Below, in pieces: positions 17 through 61,670 of a stretch of DNA of 64,000 nt. Numbering within the stretch: the stretch's first letter is position 1; each line of letters starts with the position of its first letter. The DNA is taken from positions 763,315 to 827,314 of the forward strand of contig NZ_MKQR01000026.1 in NCBI RefSeq assembly GCF_001940455.1, in the 5' to 3' direction. Below the pieces are notes generated by a model that was not told the DNA's origin, made no database searches, and saw only the letters and a list, made by a program, of their open reading frames with translations. This DNA is from Actinokineospora bangkokensis. GTDB lineage: Bacteria; Actinomycetota; Actinomycetes; Mycobacteriales; Pseudonocardiaceae. The translations under genes were made by a program, and so were the position numbers.

Positions 17-590
17 CCAGCCCCACCAACCCCCCAGCACCCTCATGCCCCGTGGCGAAGCCCATCCCTAAAAGCCGTCGTCTGGCCAGCGCCTCTGCCA
101 GCCCGCAAACCACGGTGCCCAGCCCCACCACCAGGCTCGGCAAACCCAACGACGCTCAGCTGAGCAAAAGGTCATGGGCGTTGCCTACACCCCGGCCTGA
201 CCCAGTCCCGGCCGCTCGTAGCTCGGTGGAGGCGGTGTCAAGGGTGGGCGAAGCCCATCGCGAAGCGACGCCCGCAGGGCGCCCTTGACTCCGCCTCCAC
301 CGAGTTACACACTCGCGGCCCCCGAGGACAGGCCCCCACTAAGCCCAGCACCCCGTCCCCACCGCGCCCACTCCACCCGTCCACACCGCGCCTCAAGAAC
401 CCCACCCACACCGAGCCAAGATCAACTCCACGCGCCCCCACGCGTCACCATCCGCAGCCCCCACCCACCCAAGGGGCTCTGGTCCCTTGCGGCCATTCTA
501 CCCGCTGACCAGCTAAAACAAGCCCCAAACGATCTTGCCTGTGGATAACCCCGCCCGAAAAGCCCGATTCCAACAACCACCAACGGGTGA
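17..590. repeat. long direct repeat, copy 1 (non-coding)
   Basis: No gene is visible in the first 590 bases. The stretch is C-rich and closely matches 61046-61595 in the same orientation: the gtggcgaagcccatcc block near 52, the segment around the inverted repeat at 219-307, and almost all of 390-575 are shared, ending with a common cctgtggataacc (TGTGGATAA at 540-548, which matches the classical DnaA box). Reading frames across it are low quality and not conserved between copies. It holds a cloverleaf inverted repeat annotated separately. No transposase or integrase is present, so what moved it is unknown. Confidence 0.85.
219..307. repeat. cloverleaf inverted repeat, copy 1
   Basis: A 14-bp outer stem (222-235 with 291-304) and, after one T/T mismatch, an 8-bp stem GTCAAGGG (237-244) with CCCTTGAC (282-289) enclose three adjoining mini-hairpins with no unpaired bases between them: TGGGC-GAA-GCCCA (245-257), TCGC-GAA-GCGA (258-268) and CGCCC-GCA-GGGCG (269-281). 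All three loops are GNA triloops; GCGAAGC is known as an exceptionally stable DNA mini-hairpin. The same architecture recurs at 61259-61347 with a different but still complementary outer stem. Whether it acts as single-stranded DNA or as RNA is not known. Confidence 0.85.
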
Positions 591-593
591 ATC

Positions 594-1055
594 TCACCCA
601 GCCTCAGCAGCTGCCTTCAACCGCCCCAGCGTCGCCTCGATGTTCCGCTGGTTCTCCGCCGCGCGATCCCCCACCCCGGTCCCCAGCGCCGTGATCGGCC
701 GGTACCACGCGGGCCGCAGGTCCCACGTCGACTCGGTCAGCACGCAGCCGCCGTCGGCGGGCTCGATGTCGTACTGCCAGCGCGCCACCGGCAGGCCGAA
801 GGACTTCACCTCGAAGGCGAAGCGCTCGACCTGGGCGTCGGTGACGCGGGAGGTGGTGGACCAGCGGCGCCAGCCGCGGCGGTTCCTGCCCTTGAACCGG
901 GCGCCGACCGCGGGGCCGGTGGCGCCGTCGAGCCAGGTGCCGCCGCTGTACTCCTCGGCGGAGGACGCCATGCCCGCGAGGTCGCTGACCAGGGCGTAGA
1001 CGCGGGCGGGGGTGGCGTTGACGTGGACCTGGGCGTGGGCGGTGGGGTCCGGCAC
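594..1055 (-). CDS. SRPBCC (START-like) family protein
   Basis: The 153-aa product has the size and pattern of polyketide cyclase/dehydrase-type SRPBCC proteins: it opens with a strand and a 'TPARVYALVSDL' helix, followed by alternating strands and a long C-terminal helix ending in NQRNIEATLGRLKAAAE. This fold forms a hydrophobic pocket for a lipid or aromatic ligand; the ligand cannot be read from sequence. It starts at GTG 1055, three bases after the stop of the upstream methyltransferase gene, so the two are probably co-transcribed. No signal peptide or membrane segment is seen, so it is likely cytoplasmic. Confidence 0.85.
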   Translation of the reverse strand: MPDPTAHAQVHVNATPARVYALVSDLAGMASSAEEYSGGTWLDGATGPAVGARFKGRNRRGWRRWSTTSRVTDAQVERFAFEVKSFGLPVARWQYDIEPADGGCVLTESTWDLRPAWYRPITALGTGVGDRAAENQRNIEATLGRLKAAAEAG

Positions 1056-29056: not shown

Positions 29057-29133
29057 GCCCCGCCCGGGAGTGATCCGGAACACATCTCGCGTTCCGTGTA
29101 ACACCCCTGGCGCACCGCACGATGAACCGGTTG

Positions 29134-29180
29134 ACCCCGTAGTGCTGGCGGACCCCCGACCTGGCAGCACTACGGGGTTT
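29134..29180 (+). terminator. rho-independent terminator of the 48-aa gene
   Basis: ACCCCGTAGTGCTG (29134-29147) pairs with CAGCACTACGGGGT (29165-29178) and is followed by TT. Confidence 0.8.
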
Positions 29181-29229
29181 CCGCATGTCCGGGGTAGGTG
29201 CGACTGGCCGCGCAGGGCATACTGCCGCC

Positions 29230-45495: not shown

Positions 45496-46449
45496 ATGAT
45501 CGAGGCACAGGGCCTCACCAAGCGGTACGGGAAGACGTTGGCGGTGGACGACCTGTCGTTCTCGGTCAAGGCGGGCCGGGTGACCGGGTTCCTCGGGCCC
45601 AACGGCGCGGGCAAGTCCACCACCATGCGGATGGTGCTGGGCCTGGACACCCCCACCTCGGGGACGGTCCGCATCGACGGCAAGCGCTACCGGGACCTCA
45701 AGGACCCGCTGCGCACCGTCGGCGCCCTGCTCGACGCCAAGTGGGTGCACCCCAACCGCTCCGCCCGCGCGCACCTGGCGTGGATGGCCAGGTCGAACCG
45801 CATCCCGGCCGCGCGGGTGGACGAGGTGCTCGACGTCGTCGGCCTCACCGCGGTCGCGGGCAAGAACGCGGGCGGGTTCTCGCTGGGCATGTCGCAGCGG
45901 CTGGGGATCGCCGCCGCGCTGCTGGGCGACCCGCAGGTGCTGCTGTTCGACGAGCCGGTCAACGGCCTGGACCCGGAGGGCATCCTGTGGATCCGCCGGT
46001 TCATGCACCGGCTGGCCGAGGAGGGGCGGACGGTCTTCGTCTCCAGCCACCTGCTCTCGGAGATGGCGCTCACCGCGCAGGAGCTGGTGGTGATCGGCCG
46101 GGGCAAGCTGATCGCGCAGACCAGCACCGAGGACTTCGTCGCGCAGGCCACCGAGAACACCGTGCGGGTGCGCAGCCCCCAGCTCGACGAGCTGCGCTCG
46201 GCCCTGGGGCGGACCGGGGTCCACCTCAAGGATGACGGCGGCGCGCTGGTGGTGTCCGGGATGGACGCCGCCGAGATCGGTGAGCTGGCGGCGCGCACCG
46301 GCGCCGTGCTGCACGAGCTCAGCCCCCAGCGCGGGTCGCTGGAGGAGGCGTTCATGCAGCTGACCGGCGACTCGGTGGAGTACCACACCGACGTCGCCGC
46401 CGAGGCCGCCCAGCTGCTGGCCACCGGACCGCAGGGCGTGACCAGGTGA
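45496..46449 (+). CDS. ABC exporter ATP-binding protein
   Basis: The 317-aa ATPase has Walker A GPNGAGKST (34-42), signature FSLGMSQRLG (about 133), Walker B LLFDEPVNGLDPEG (about 151) and a His switch (VSSHLLSEM). The type is that of antibiotic/bacitracin-like exporters (DrrA/YxlF class). It is followed by two overlapping permease genes. Its C-terminal third is an extra regulatory strand-rich part typical of the class. Confidence 0.92.
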   Translation: MIEAQGLTKRYGKTLAVDDLSFSVKAGRVTGFLGPNGAGKSTTMRMVLGLDTPTSGTVRIDGKRYRDLKDPLRTVGALLDAKWVHPNRSARAHLAWMARSNRIPAARVDEVLDVVGLTAVAGKNAGGFSLGMSQRLGIAAALLGDPQVLLFDEPVNGLDPEGILWIRRFMHRLAEEGRTVFVSSHLLSEMALTAQELVVIGRGKLIAQTSTEDFVAQATENTVRVRSPQLDELRSALGRTGVHLKDDGGALVVSGMDAAEIGELAARTGAVLHELSPQRGSLEEAFMQLTGDSVEYHTDVAAEAAQLLATGPQGVTR

Positions 46450-47210
46450 CGCTGCTGGCCGTCGAGCGGATGAAGCTGGTCAGCACCCGCTCGCCGTGGT
46501 GGTGCGCCGCGCTGGCGCTGCTGCTGACCACCGGGTTCGCCGCGCTGATGGCGGCGACCGCGGTCCCCGAGGTGCCGCTGACGGTGGCCTCGACCCAGTT
46601 CGGCTACCGGTTCGGCATGACGGTGGTCATGGTCATGGCCGCGCTCGCGGTCACCACCGAGTACCGCTTCGGCACCATCCGGGCCAGCTTCCTGGGCTCG
46701 CCGGGGCGCACCGGCACCCTGGTCGCCAAGGCCGCGGTCGTCGCGGTGGTCGCCCTCGTGCTGGGCGAGCTGGCCGGGTTCGGCTCGTGGGGGATCGCGA
46801 AGCTGGTCGACCCTGGCGCCGACCTGGCGCTCCAGACGGCCTACGAGTGGCGCGCGGTCGCGGGCGTCGGCCTGGTCTACGCCGCGGCGGCGGTGCTGGC
46901 GGTGGGCGTGGGGGCCATCGTGCGGCACACCGCGGGCGCGGTGTCGGTGCTGCTCATCTGGAGCTTCCTCGTCGAGGGGCTGGTCCAGCTGGTGCCGCGC
47001 GTCGGCGACGACGTCTTCCGCTGGCTGCCGTTCAACGTCGCGGACAAGTTCATCACCGGCGACCCGGACCCGTCGGCGCGCGACGTGGTGTACGGGCCGC
47101 CGCCCGCCGACGCCGTCCTGGGCCCGTGGCCCGCACTCGCCTACTTCGCGGGCATCGCCGCGGTCGTGCTGGCCGCCGCGGTGGTCGCGGTCAACCGGAG
47201 GGACGCCTGA
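46446..47210 (+). CDS. ABC exporter permease, paralogue 1
   Basis: A 254-aa membrane protein with about six segments, beginning VTLLAVERMKLVSTRSPWW and containing MAALAVTTEYRFGTIRASFLGSPGR. GTG 46446 overlaps the ATPase stop by four bases. It shares about half its residues with the next gene, including the same opening and the TTEYRFGTIR motif, showing recent duplication. Confidence 0.88.
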   Translation: MTLLAVERMKLVSTRSPWWCAALALLLTTGFAALMAATAVPEVPLTVASTQFGYRFGMTVVMVMAALAVTTEYRFGTIRASFLGSPGRTGTLVAKAAVVAVVALVLGELAGFGSWGIAKLVDPGADLALQTAYEWRAVAGVGLVYAAAAVLAVGVGAIVRHTAGAVSVLLIWSFLVEGLVQLVPRVGDDVFRWLPFNVADKFITGDPDPSARDVVYGPPPADAVLGPWPALAYFAGIAAVVLAAAVVAVNRRDA

Positions 47211-47938
47211 TGACGCTGCTCGCCACCGAGCGGATGAAGCTGATGAGCACCCGCTCGCCCTGGTTCAGCACGGTGCTGGCGGTCGGCCTGGTCGCGGGCT
47301 TCGCCGGGCTGCTCGCGCTGACCACCACCGACAAGTCCACCCTCGACCTGGGGCTGCTGCTCGCGGGCGGCCAGTTCGGGCAGATGGTGATCCTGGTGAT
47401 GGCCGCGCTCGCGGTCACCACCGAGTACCGGTTCGGCACCATCCGCACCACGTTCCAGGCGGTGCCGCGGCGCACCTCGGCGCTGCTGGCCAAGACCGGG
47501 GTCGTCGCGCTGCTGGCCCTGGTCATCGGTGAGGTCGCCGGGTTCGGCGCCTGGGCCGTCGGCAAGCTGTTCGCCGGGTCCGCCGCGCCGATCGCGCTGG
47601 CGGGCGAGGCGGCCTGGCGCCAGGTCGCCGGGGTCGGGCCGCTGTTCGCCGTCGCCGCGGTGGTCGCGGTCGCGGTGGGCATCCTGGTGCGCCAGTCCGC
47701 GGGCGCCATCTCGGTCGTGCTGATCTGGTCGCTGCTGGTGGAGACCCTGGTCGCGCTCATCCCGCGGGTGGGCCGCGACATCCAGCAGTGGATGCCGTTC
47801 CAGGTCGGTTCGCGGTTCCTGGGCGAGGGCGCGCCGGGCGCGCCGCTGGGCCCGTGGGCCTCGCTGGGCTACTTCGCGGCCGTCGCCGCGGTGCTGCTGG
47901 CGGTCGCGCTGGTGGTGGCGGACAAGCGCGACGCGTGA
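47210..47938 (+). CDS. ABC exporter permease, paralogue 2
   Basis: A 242-aa membrane protein starting at ATG 47210 on the upstream stop (ATGA). It begins MTLLATERMKLMSTRSPWF and has MAALAVTTEYRFGTIRTTFQAVPRRT, matching its neighbour. Two different permeases suggest a heterodimer with one ATPase dimer. Exported substrate unknown. Confidence 0.88.
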   Translation: MTLLATERMKLMSTRSPWFSTVLAVGLVAGFAGLLALTTTDKSTLDLGLLLAGGQFGQMVILVMAALAVTTEYRFGTIRTTFQAVPRRTSALLAKTGVVALLALVIGEVAGFGAWAVGKLFAGSAAPIALAGEAAWRQVAGVGPLFAVAAVVAVAVGILVRQSAGAISVVLIWSLLVETLVALIPRVGRDIQQWMPFQVGSRFLGEGAPGAPLGPWASLGYFAAVAAVLLAVALVVADKRDA

Positions 47939-60500: not shown

Positions 60501-60878
60501 CAGAACCCCATCCTCCGCGACGCCTCCGGCGCCAAGATCTACGGCTCCGGCCTCCCGGGCAAGATCTGGAAGACCTTCATGGACTCCTACCTCAAGAACC
60601 AGCCCAAGCTCGACTTCGGCCCCTTCAAGCCGATCGGCAAGAACACCCCCAAGCAAGACGACAACGACGAGACCACCCAGAAGCCCACCAACTCCCAACC
60701 CAACGACGCCCCCACGACCACCACCACCGCCGAGGCCCCCCCGACCACCACCACCGAGGCAGACGCGGGCGAAACCACCACCACCCGCCCCACCCGCCCC
60801 CGCCCCGGCGACGACACCGACCTCCCCCTCCCCGGCGGAGGCGGCGGTGGCCCCGGCAACAACGGCGCCAACGGTTAA
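57570..60878 (+). CDS. ponA: bifunctional class A penicillin-binding protein (PonA)
   Basis: The 1102-aa protein has a ~400-residue cytoplasmic N-terminal part, largely Gly/Pro/Arg low complexity with a collagen-like run, one membrane segment (TLYVCTALAIVVPVLAFFITYQM, about 400-425), a GT51 glycosyltransferase with catalytic Glu in AAEDQTFE (about 475-485) and GGSTISQQYIKK, then a transpeptidase with SSFK (about 744-747), SLN (about 799) and KTG (about 936), and a Pro/Thr tail. It polymerises and crosslinks peptidoglycan. The long N-terminal tail probably binds divisome/elongasome partners. GTG 57570. It follows DUF5318, as in mycobacteria. Confidence 0.93.
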   Translation: MNDRNTPGRSGEPQWPTGDPSGASPGERPGAPGARGRDGGRSAGGPSGPGSNGDVAMSSGAGRGPADQGRGPGGPGSPGGQGARGDGRAPGGGQQPGRGPAGGPGPAGGRPDQGPRGGSGERDYGQGPRGGSGERDYGQGPRGGSGERNYGGAPAGGPGRGAPGRPGGGPNGFPPAGAPGGRGDSGERNYGPPSGGRGPAGPGGPGGPGGPGGPGGPGGPGRPAAGGAAGAAGVGGPGFNGPGGPGGPGGAGGPGRPGPGGPGPQGGPGRPGPGGRGPGGPGGPGGPGRPGGPAGPGRPGPGGGLSEEATRALSAAGVTGTALGGRQDKAEDPTVFMSKSSPTERAEPQLLTHREFDDPTPADDYDDYAADDDYDDADDSLTPEEEKRMRRKKIWRRVRRTLYVCTALAIVVPVLAFFITYQMVEVDNPRDVALAQDKVVTLQYADGSPMARLAESGGNRIMLEYADIPKDVLHAVYAAEDQTFETNSGFDLTGILRAVFLQVTGGSGGGSTISQQYIKKASGNEDPTLSRKWVEVVKSYKMNKTYSKEDIITAYLNTIYFGRGAYGVAAAAKAYYGVDIKQITKSQAAVLAGMIQTPARGKDVEYQRGRWDYVTNRMISNNWMTASDKAQQPFPEPVPPADSQLAALPAPRRGFADLVMKELESYGISEDSVKRNGYVITLTIDPNAQNLAEQAVASVMDGQPANLHPGLVAVDPATGAVRAYYGGPDGAGFDWAAARQEPGSSFKPFDLVGLLEKGKGLGEVYDTKPKAFGANNKIVRNASTPKCGSSCTVAEAMKESLNVVFSDMVYNDVKPGGVVTAAQQAGIQSDLSKASGDINIAIGGGATQVTTVDMASAYATFAANGTYRKPHLVQKVTYPDGGVAFDATSRTELAEKAAFDANDADRNQQIARNVTEALIPIPAYSKVACDDKRVCAGKTGTHQYVNPQGEDTADNTKAWMVGYTPQISTAVSMGGDSQNPILRDASGAKIYGSGLPGKIWKTFMDSYLKNQPKLDFGPFKPIGKNTPKQDDNDETTQKPTNSQPNDAPTTTTTAEAPPTTTTEADAGETTTTRPTRPRPGDDTDLPLPGGGGGGPGNNGANG
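57918..58235 (+). repeat. in-frame tandem repeats in ponA
   Basis: A 13-residue unit GSGERDYGQGPRG occurs about three times (57918-58030), followed further on by an 18-bp unit GGACCTGGTGGGCCCGGC in three copies (about 58176-58232) that encodes Gly-Pro-Gly repeats. Such repeats expand and contract easily by slippage. Confidence 0.8.
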
Positions 60879-60894
60879 CCCCCAGCACCCCCAG

Positions 60895-60925
60895 GAAGCC
60901 CCCGAGCCCCAGGCCCGGGGGCTTC
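60895..60925 (+). terminator. hairpin terminator of ponA
   Basis: GAAGCCCCCG (60895-60904) pairs with CGGGGGCTTC (60916-60925) just after the ponA stop. Confidence 0.8.
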
Positions 60926-60954
60926 TCCCATCACCCCCCTCCACGCCACCCCCG

Positions 60955-61045
60955 CCCCCTCCCCACTCCCACCCTCCGACGCCGAAGGCGAGCCCACCCA
61001 TCCCTCAAAGCCGTCGTTAGGCCAATGCACCCCCACCCTCCAACC
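60955..61045. repeat. decayed partial copy of the long repeat
   Basis: The block cccatccctcaaagccgtcgt... near 60996 and the following C-rich stretch resemble the first part of the long repeat but lack the cloverleaf. It lies directly before copy 2. Confidence 0.55.
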
Positions 61046-61595
61046 CATGCGGCCCAGCCCCACCACCCCCCGGCACCCCCATGCCCCATGCCCCGTGGCG
61101 AAGCCCATCCCTAAAGCCGTCGTCTGGCCAACCCCACGCCCACCCCGCAAACCATGACGCCCAGCCCCCACAACCCCCCGGCACCCCCGACAACGCTCAA
61201 CTGAGCAAACAGTCACGGCGCTGCCTACACCCCGGCCTGACCCAGTCCCGGCCGCTCGTAGCTCGGGAGGTGGCGTGTCAAGGGTGGGCAAAGCCCATCG
61301 CGAAGCGACGCCCGCAGGGCGCCCTTGACTCGCCACCTCCCGAGTTACACACTCGCGGCCCCCGAGGACAGGCCCCCACTGCGCCAAGAACCCGTCCACA
61401 CCGCGCCCCAAGAACCCCACATACACCGAGCCAAGATCAACTCCACGCGCCCCCACGCGTCACCATCCGCAGCCCCCACCCACCCAAGGGGCTGTGGTCC
61501 CTTGCGGCCATTCTACCCGCTGACCAGCGCAAACAAGCCCCAAACGATCTTGCCTGTGGATAACCCCGCCCGAAAAGCCCGACTCCGAACCACCG
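61046..61595. repeat. long direct repeat, copy 2 (non-coding)
   Basis: Same orientation and layout as 17-590. It fills the gap between ponA and the GT87 gene, which are adjacent in related genomes. Identity is high over 61200-61420 and near-complete over about 61425-61580, ending with the same cctgtggataacc (TGTGGATAA at 61555-61563). No gene inside is credible. Confidence 0.85.
61259..61347. repeat. cloverleaf inverted repeat, copy 2
   Basis: Outer stem CTCGGGAGGTGGCG (61262-61275) with CGCCACCTCCCGAG (61331-61344), T/T mismatch, GTCAAGGG/CCCTTGAC, then mini-hairpins TGGGC-AAA-GCCCA, TCGC-GAA-GCGA and CGCCC-GCA-GGGCG at 61285-61321. Compared with copy 1 the outer stem has about six changed positions, all with compensating changes on the other arm. 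Confidence 0.85.
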
Positions 61596-61670
61596 GATCG
61601 AGTGAAATACGGAGCGGCGCAGCGGCCGTGCCAAACCCGCGTCGCACACCGGCACCCGTAGCATCGCGCC

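Follow-up and report, generated by a model that had tools for sequence, protein, structure and literature searches.

The cloverleaf-like inverted repeat that occurs twice in the window, by which we mean the whole 64,000-nt stretch of Actinokineospora bangkokensis DNA analyzed here, probably forms the ends of small mobile DNA units that make up a family in actinobacteria. The element has a compensated fold that is biased towards one strand, it is dispersed between genes, in some genomes it forms inverted pairs that enclose cargo, and blocks holding it are present in some genomes and absent from others at two orthologous sites.

Both window copies fold into the cloverleaf described in the first-pass annotation, with paired cores at 218-308 (copy 1) and 61258-61348 (copy 2). 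Folded as single-stranded DNA, positions 209-317 adopt this shape at -44.4 kcal/mol (z -7.9); folded as RNA, the same positions give a z of -7.5 and copy 2 (61249-61357) takes the same shape with a z of -8.1, and in each case none of 200 shuffled sequences was as good. Three hairpins, TGGGC-GAA-GCCCA, TCGC-GAA-GCGA and CGCCC-GCA-GGGCG, are stacked without a single unpaired base under a stem formed by GTCAAGGG and CCCTTGAC (237-244 paired with 282-289 in copy 1), the loop of the first hairpin being AAA, not GAA, in copy 2. A T-T mismatch separates this 8-bp stem from a 14-bp stem (222-235 paired with 291-304 in copy 1), which is prolonged by four base pairs between GTAG (218-221) and TTAC, one of them G-T. 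The reported replacement of CTCGGTGGAGGCGG by CTCGGGAGGTGGCG in the 14-bp stem of copy 2, with a partner arm altered to match, is exact and changes six pairs. The element is bigger than first described, as it also comprises an outer stem and a 5′ tail, and roughly every second copy has a 3′ module as well. In copy 1 the outer stem, which is imperfect and pairs GGCCTG..GGCCGC with GCGGCC..CAGGCC, enlarges the fold to approximately 194-334, and, where the 3′ module is lacking, comparison of flanks by eye suggests that the unit stops at about its 3′ end. The features of the window are as follows, R1 being a model built from 24 copies of the host genome:

16 to 193, plus strand: 5′ tail of copy 1, a repeated unit of about 100 nt with GTGGCGAAGCCCATCCCTAAAGCCGTCGT, plus a GCTCAGCTGAGC palindrome (repeats, consensus)
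194 to 334, plus strand: outer imperfect stem of copy 1, GGCCTG..CAGGCC, which closes the element (folds)
210 to 320, plus strand: whole inner hairpin of copy 1, GGCCGC...GCGGCC (R1 match, folds)
218 to 235, plus strand: 5′ arm of the long stem of copy 1, GTAG followed by CTCGGTGGAGGCGG, haplotype A (fold, haplotypes)
237 to 289, plus strand: conserved head of copy 1, in the order GTCAAGGG, hp1 (245-257), hp2 (258-268), hp3 (269-281), CCCTTGAC (fold; 81 distinct heads across genomes)
291 to 308, plus strand: 3′ arm of the long stem of copy 1, CCGCCTCCACCGAG followed by TTAC (fold)
375 to 571, plus strand: optional 3′ module of copy 1 with TGTGGATAACC (repeat; in about half of the copies)
60941 to 61640, no strand assigned: approximate block, of which congeners have little or nothing between the corresponding two genes (congener intervals)
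60981 to 61233, plus strand: 5′ tail of copy 2, two units (repeats)
61250 to 61360, plus strand: whole inner hairpin of copy 2 with the haplotype B stem (R1 match, fold)
61277 to 61329, plus strand: conserved cloverleaf head of copy 2 (fold)
61390 to 61586, plus strand: optional 3′ module of copy 2 (repeat)

The optional 3′ module carries TGTGGATAA at 540-548 and 61555-61563, which is the DnaA-box consensus TTATCCACA read on the opposite strand, and locus L026 holds more TTATCCACA and TTGTCCACA sites next to its cloverleaf copy. Elsewhere in the window, the Rfam F6 sRNA model matches at 29128-29183 (62.5 bits), and two blocks lying 764 bp apart (46442-46809 and 47206-47573) are 75-77% identical and are probably duplicated genes.

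At least 26 intergenic copies of the cloverleaf, including the two of the window, are present in the 7.45-Mb host genome (32 contigs). They have in common a 5′ tail of repeated units, about half of them contain the 3′ module with TGTGGATAACC, and the foot of the stem reads GTAG or GTAA, with other tetranucleotides in other genera. Host stems occur as two haplotypes, A/A in 12 and B/B in 13 of 25 distinct copies, none of which has mixed arms. The hp3 allele located between the arms assorts freely with respect to haplotype (all four combinations, 7/5/7/6), and thus the stem arms remain matched while the enclosed hairpin is exchanged. In an alignment of 24 host copies, from which L012 (interrupted by N) and L018 (a duplicate of L019) were excluded, 98.9% of stem cells are paired, versus 31-45% in slid controls. 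The number of pairs changed on both sides, six, was as high in 350 of 500 shuffles, and the number of cells with changes on both sides and the covariation score were reached by none of the 500. As the host has only two stem haplotypes, its six compensated pairs represent approximately one event, and such compensation within the host genome would not by itself prove selection. Several copies adjoin assembly gaps: N runs occur in L001, L012 and L020, the window itself starts at a gap, contig C16 begins 114 nt before copy L007, and several Actinomadura contigs likewise end next to a cloverleaf; the hairpin may be a cause of these breaks. L019 and L018 (G000:C26 749707 and 921340) have identical flanks where compared, in inverted orientation, and are a segmental duplication or an assembly artefact.

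Searches with R1 gave a match in at least 52 of 150 genomes and at least 34 of 79 genera of a set of relatives (E≤0.001), and in at least 21 of 246 genomes and at least 12 of 104 genera across the class (E≤1e-6), the host being included in both. Named Actinomadura and Amycolatopsis records were among the matches listed for a 17-base head pattern, which also matches unrelated species by chance. An exact-head pattern that is stricter than R1 was found phylum-wide in three of 396 genomes: the host, G499 and, probably by chance, G430. The loci collected yielded 223 elements with 81 distinct heads laid out as TCAAGGG-hp1-TCGCGNAGCGA-hp3-CCCTTGA, in which neither the length nor the sequence of hp1 and hp3 is fixed. 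As the element list requires TCGCGNAGCGA, relatives with a different middle hairpin escape it (7 of 27 loci of genome G006 gave none) and the GNA counts for the hp2 loop are built in. Seventy-nine of the 81 heads could be parsed; a C[GNA]G loop is present at hp1 in 32 and at hp3 in 56, with CTTG or CTCG otherwise common.

With every one of 20 genome groups represented by a single stem, standard pairs filled 368 of 400 cells, compared with a mean of 251 and a maximum of 287 when whole 3′ arms were swapped among the groups 2000 times. Random choice of group representatives gave 353-373 standard pairs against a null that never exceeded 293. Eighteen of the 20 stem positions have changed on both sides. 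The count of 368 retains the two of 101 distinct stems that fall short of 14 standard pairs out of 20. It excludes 52 of the 223 elements, which come from the other named records and belong mostly to Actinomadura, where the stem has 8 bp. Shared ancestry inflates some of the counts given here. That pairing and not sequence is preserved, with the stem below the head varying freely yet remaining paired, is well supported. The first-pass annotation had drawn this conclusion from the six compensated pairs of the window; the preservation of pairing is upheld by the 20 groups, but the window pair reflects approximately one haplotype switch, and the decisive covariation is that of the other genomes.

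None of the 223 elements overlaps a gene in our own codon-usage gene calls. For the 173 with both neighbours called (50 elements are without a called neighbour, and members of doublets were counted singly), the neighbours are convergent in 88 cases, tandem in 75 and divergent in 10. No Pfam family recurred in more than two of the 80 neighbours scanned from 331 collected, and a link to one particular neighbouring host gene was rejected on this basis. On the Streptomyces plasmid NZ_CP108633.1 (L286, 2897-3475), a cloverleaf lies between partial matches to IS110 and DDE_Tnp_1_4 transposases, both of whose genes are apparently truncated.

Presence and absence of the blocks that hold the element are well supported at two orthologous sites, where empty sites of the kind proposed by the first-pass annotation were found in relatives. 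The gene-to-gene interval around copy 2 measures 792 bp in the window (60850-61642) and 98 bp in the congener G003. It is shorter by 562-706 bp in nine of ten congeners compared and by 170 bp in G015, this comparison covering ten of fifteen congeners with sequences read for G003, G007 and G010. The second site belongs to G499, a genome from another family of the same class, in which 25 copies match the exact pattern and 22 of these form 11 minus-then-plus pairs. The pairs enclose 0.9-3.6 kb of cargo, with a GC content below that of both flanks in nine of 11, and some units have private variants common to both ends. For one such unit, the flanks are 55-129 bp apart, and hence the site is empty, in 27 of 29 other genomes read, these being the best 29 of 60, a choice that favours contiguous flanks. 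The same flanks are 1.15-1.19 kb apart in G579, which has two cloverleafs there, and in G595, which has one; in ten more genomes (G544, G555, G562, G565, G571, G572, G581, G583, G587 and G598) they are 122-356 bp apart. At the ends inspected by eye no target-site duplication was apparent, and the empty sites are highly diverged. Twenty G499 cargo open reading frames were picked, and 14 gave a Pfam match (E≤0.01): HAD, NUDIX, GNAT, NmrA, APH, GntR/UTRA, GDSL, CYTH, helix-turn-helix, a weak TPR and one DDE_5 transposase. None of the ten G499 cargo proteins given matched PADLOC defence models (E≤0.001), and the idea that the cargo consists of defence genes was rejected. Inverted repeats that bound a unit in the manner of terminal inverted repeats are thus seen in 11 pairs of G499 and seven of Actinomadura, and not for the solo host copies. 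Together with the many GNA triloops, the inverted pairs around cargo and the empty sites favour the DNA role as a mobile-element end that had been suggested from the window. A phage origin was also considered and rejected, as neither window 100-620 nor the DUF222 protein of Actinomadura has a match among phage records. The reading of the cloverleaf as a unit end does not explain the doublets of genomes G014 and G006, which run plus then minus and are the reverse of the minus/plus cargo units. These inside-out doublets, whose members are 112-163 nt apart and form a huge palindrome, were seen at 19 loci among L167-L207 and at six among L178-L184.

The seven Actinomadura pairs are among eight minus/plus pairs of the named loci, span 1.8-3.1 kb and all enclose a 415-435 aa DUF222 (PF02720) protein whose C-terminus is HNH-like by eye. 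The eighth, Amycolatopsis L096 (4.2 kb), encloses glycogen-phosphorylase-like and metallopeptidase-like genes and may be two solo copies. A DUF222 hit is present in the same locus for 34 of 68 named-locus cloverleafs, on the 5′ side in 34 of 34; the other 34 comprise 19 from Amycolatopsis and 15 from Actinomadura, of which 11 have less than 120 bp of 5′ sequence and L063 has 1.5 kb without DUF222. In genome G045, a DUF222 match is found no more than 350 bp away from 11 of the 12 cloverleafs listed. An R1 cloverleaf stands at a nearly constant distance in ten of 24 DUF222 loci of this genome, on both sides only in L401, and inverted repeats exceed the control maximum in 12 of the 24, two of the 12 being cloverleaf loci (L391 and L401). 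Others of the 12 carry a different repeat, and a second family of inverted repeats, GGGTGTTCGCCGC...GCGGCGAACACCC, occurs on both sides of G045 DUF222 genes (for example L387, L388, L392, L395, L396, L397 and L403). In Actinomadura and G045, DUF222-HNH is the best candidate for the enzyme, a role that we put forward as a hypothesis. These associations would also suit a reading that we regard as rather doubtful, namely that the cloverleaf is the end of a 13E12-like DUF222-HNH mobile element with the nuclease as its transposition or homing enzyme, the window copies being orphan miniatures. Against it, DUF222 is present in three of ten copy-rich genomes and was not detected in the host and six others (E≤1e-5), only two of the ten cloverleaf-bearing G045 loci have inverted repeats above control, and the protein could be cargo. 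Of 148 genomes of the class, 109 have DUF222, but in a sequence test of one locus per genome (29 of 30 loci) none of the 29 had an inverted repeat above the control maximum, so the idea that inverted repeats generally accompany DUF222 genes is not supported; nor, among the class-survey matches listed, does a cloverleaf adjoin a DUF222 match. The three DUF222 proteins submitted to NCBIfam had no match there, and the AlphaFold model of DUF222-HNH was poor (mean pLDDT 45) and was not used. As the protein is linked to the cloverleaf in Actinomadura and G045, absent from the host and without inverted repeats at the 29 class-wide loci, it would either serve a single branch as its enzyme or be a passenger that is often carried along. 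No enzyme was found in common to all copy-rich genomes examined (DUF222 in three of ten, Y1 transposase in two of eight).

The plus strand of 156 non-identical elements contains 226 G-T, 32 A-C and 198 other mismatches, or 76, 7 and 67, respectively, when each type is counted once per genome group and position (p = 9e-16 for G-T versus A-C). As duplex DNA alone would give equal numbers of G-T and A-C, the plus strand appears to form the structure by itself. The frequency of other mismatches (67 types) counts against the mobile-end reading. GNA and CTTG loops are unusually stable in DNA, and their presence in the heads leans towards single-stranded DNA. The very stable RNA fold and the tolerance of G-U on one strand would also be expected of a structured RNA, for instance an sRNA or an element at transcript ends, that had multiplied by duplication. 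We consider this unlikely: elements in tandem contexts have no clear orientation preference (42 along and 33 against transcription), the loops are often of the DNA-stable C[GNA]G or CTTG type, and inverted copies stand at both ends of units. Rfam contains no family that matches either copy at gathering score, the best model at 1-620 being MIR1437 with 32.7 bits versus 168; an Rfam identity was rejected, as the matches were only to microRNA models and fell far below threshold, in agreement with the earlier remark that no named family has this shape.

Folding of one strand would likewise fit a transfer or single-strand origin derived from plasmids, also spread in chromosomes and used by an HUH relaxase, an idea that we judge to be just as unlikely as the RNA. 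On the circular Streptomyces subrutilus plasmid NZ_CP109053.1 a cloverleaf lies approximately 0.4 kb upstream of mobF, and on Kocuria pCE7 (circular, NZ_CP035505.1) one lies between a TraM-recognition coupling-protein-like gene and ardC. On NBC_00853, however, mobF is approximately 18 kb from the cloverleaf, and no such arrangement was seen on the other plasmid stretches examined, two of which have no annotation on one or both sides. Mobilization as a REP/REPIN element by a RAYT (Y1 HUH) transposase is highly improbable and was rejected as a general mechanism, since the features that suggest it, namely a stem foot of GTAG (218-221), dispersal between genes and inverted doublets, are set against a different size and four-way head, a GTAG that is not kept in other genera, and the absence of PF01797 from the host and six of eight copy-rich genomes, the other two having one match each.

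If the cloverleaf is the end of a mobile unit, mobilization would render the plus strand single-stranded, whereupon it could fold into a long stem with a four-way-junction head, and a nuclease or recombinase might then recognize the shape together with the conserved head. As this strand runs outward in the bounded units, it is the 3′-ending strand at both unit ends. The window copies would either be solo ends that are non-autonomous and were mobilized in trans, or be relics. The single-strand DNA mechanism, which we infer, is directly testable given the strong stem covariation and one-strand bias. More tentatively, the family may constitute a new class of mobile DNA, with cloverleaf ends read as single strands, accessory cassettes of 0.9-3.6 kb together with solo ends, and an undescribed enzyme, possibly a DUF222-HNH transposase. 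If this is right, it would add a widespread and apparently uncatalogued carrier of small gene cassettes in actinobacteria, may account for some actinobacterial assembly breaks at cloverleaf sites, and would suggest what the common DUF222-HNH proteins might do.

No description of cloverleaf-ended actinobacterial units was found in the literature searched, which included PMC3733652, PMC4447401 and PMC10589994 and lies mostly outside subscription papers, so that absence from it is not proof. REP/REPIN elements with RAYT transposases are described as GTAG and CGTC palindromes in PMC3733652, in whose main text the strings 'Actino', 'Streptomyces', 'Saccharo' and 'Amycolatopsis' have no occurrences. 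The cloverleaf resembles these elements as a short intergenic palindrome with inverted doublets and, in the host, a GTAG foot, and differs in its length of about 140-170 nt, its four-way-junction head, its cargo pairs and the lack of a Y1 transposase in most carriers tested. REP13E12/HNH/DUF222 is named as a repetitive category in PMC10589994. The REP13E12 repeats of mycobacteria likewise have a DUF222 protein inside repeated elements. Among the loci examined, however, a cloverleaf stands beside DUF222 only in Actinomadura and G045, and the host is without the gene. MITEs and the ERIC/RU-type repeats of enterobacteria are, like the cloverleaf, non-autonomous, palindromic and dispersed between genes, but the units described here have a cloverleaf end and contain cargo, and neither a parental transposase nor a target duplication was found for them. 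Streptomyces telomere palindromes and parvovirus-type ends likewise have terminal hairpins with GNA loops in which the 3′-ending strand folds, whereas the cloverleaf units are chromosomal and interspersed, and neither a terminal protein nor a Rep was seen to recur consistently beside them. The attC site of integrons also folds from a single strand, is recognized by its shape and is associated with cassettes of accessory genes; the cloverleaf also has cargo of accessory genes and, on the proposed mechanism, would share the other two traits, and it differs from attC in that an inverted copy stands at each end of the unit and in that it is also dispersed singly.
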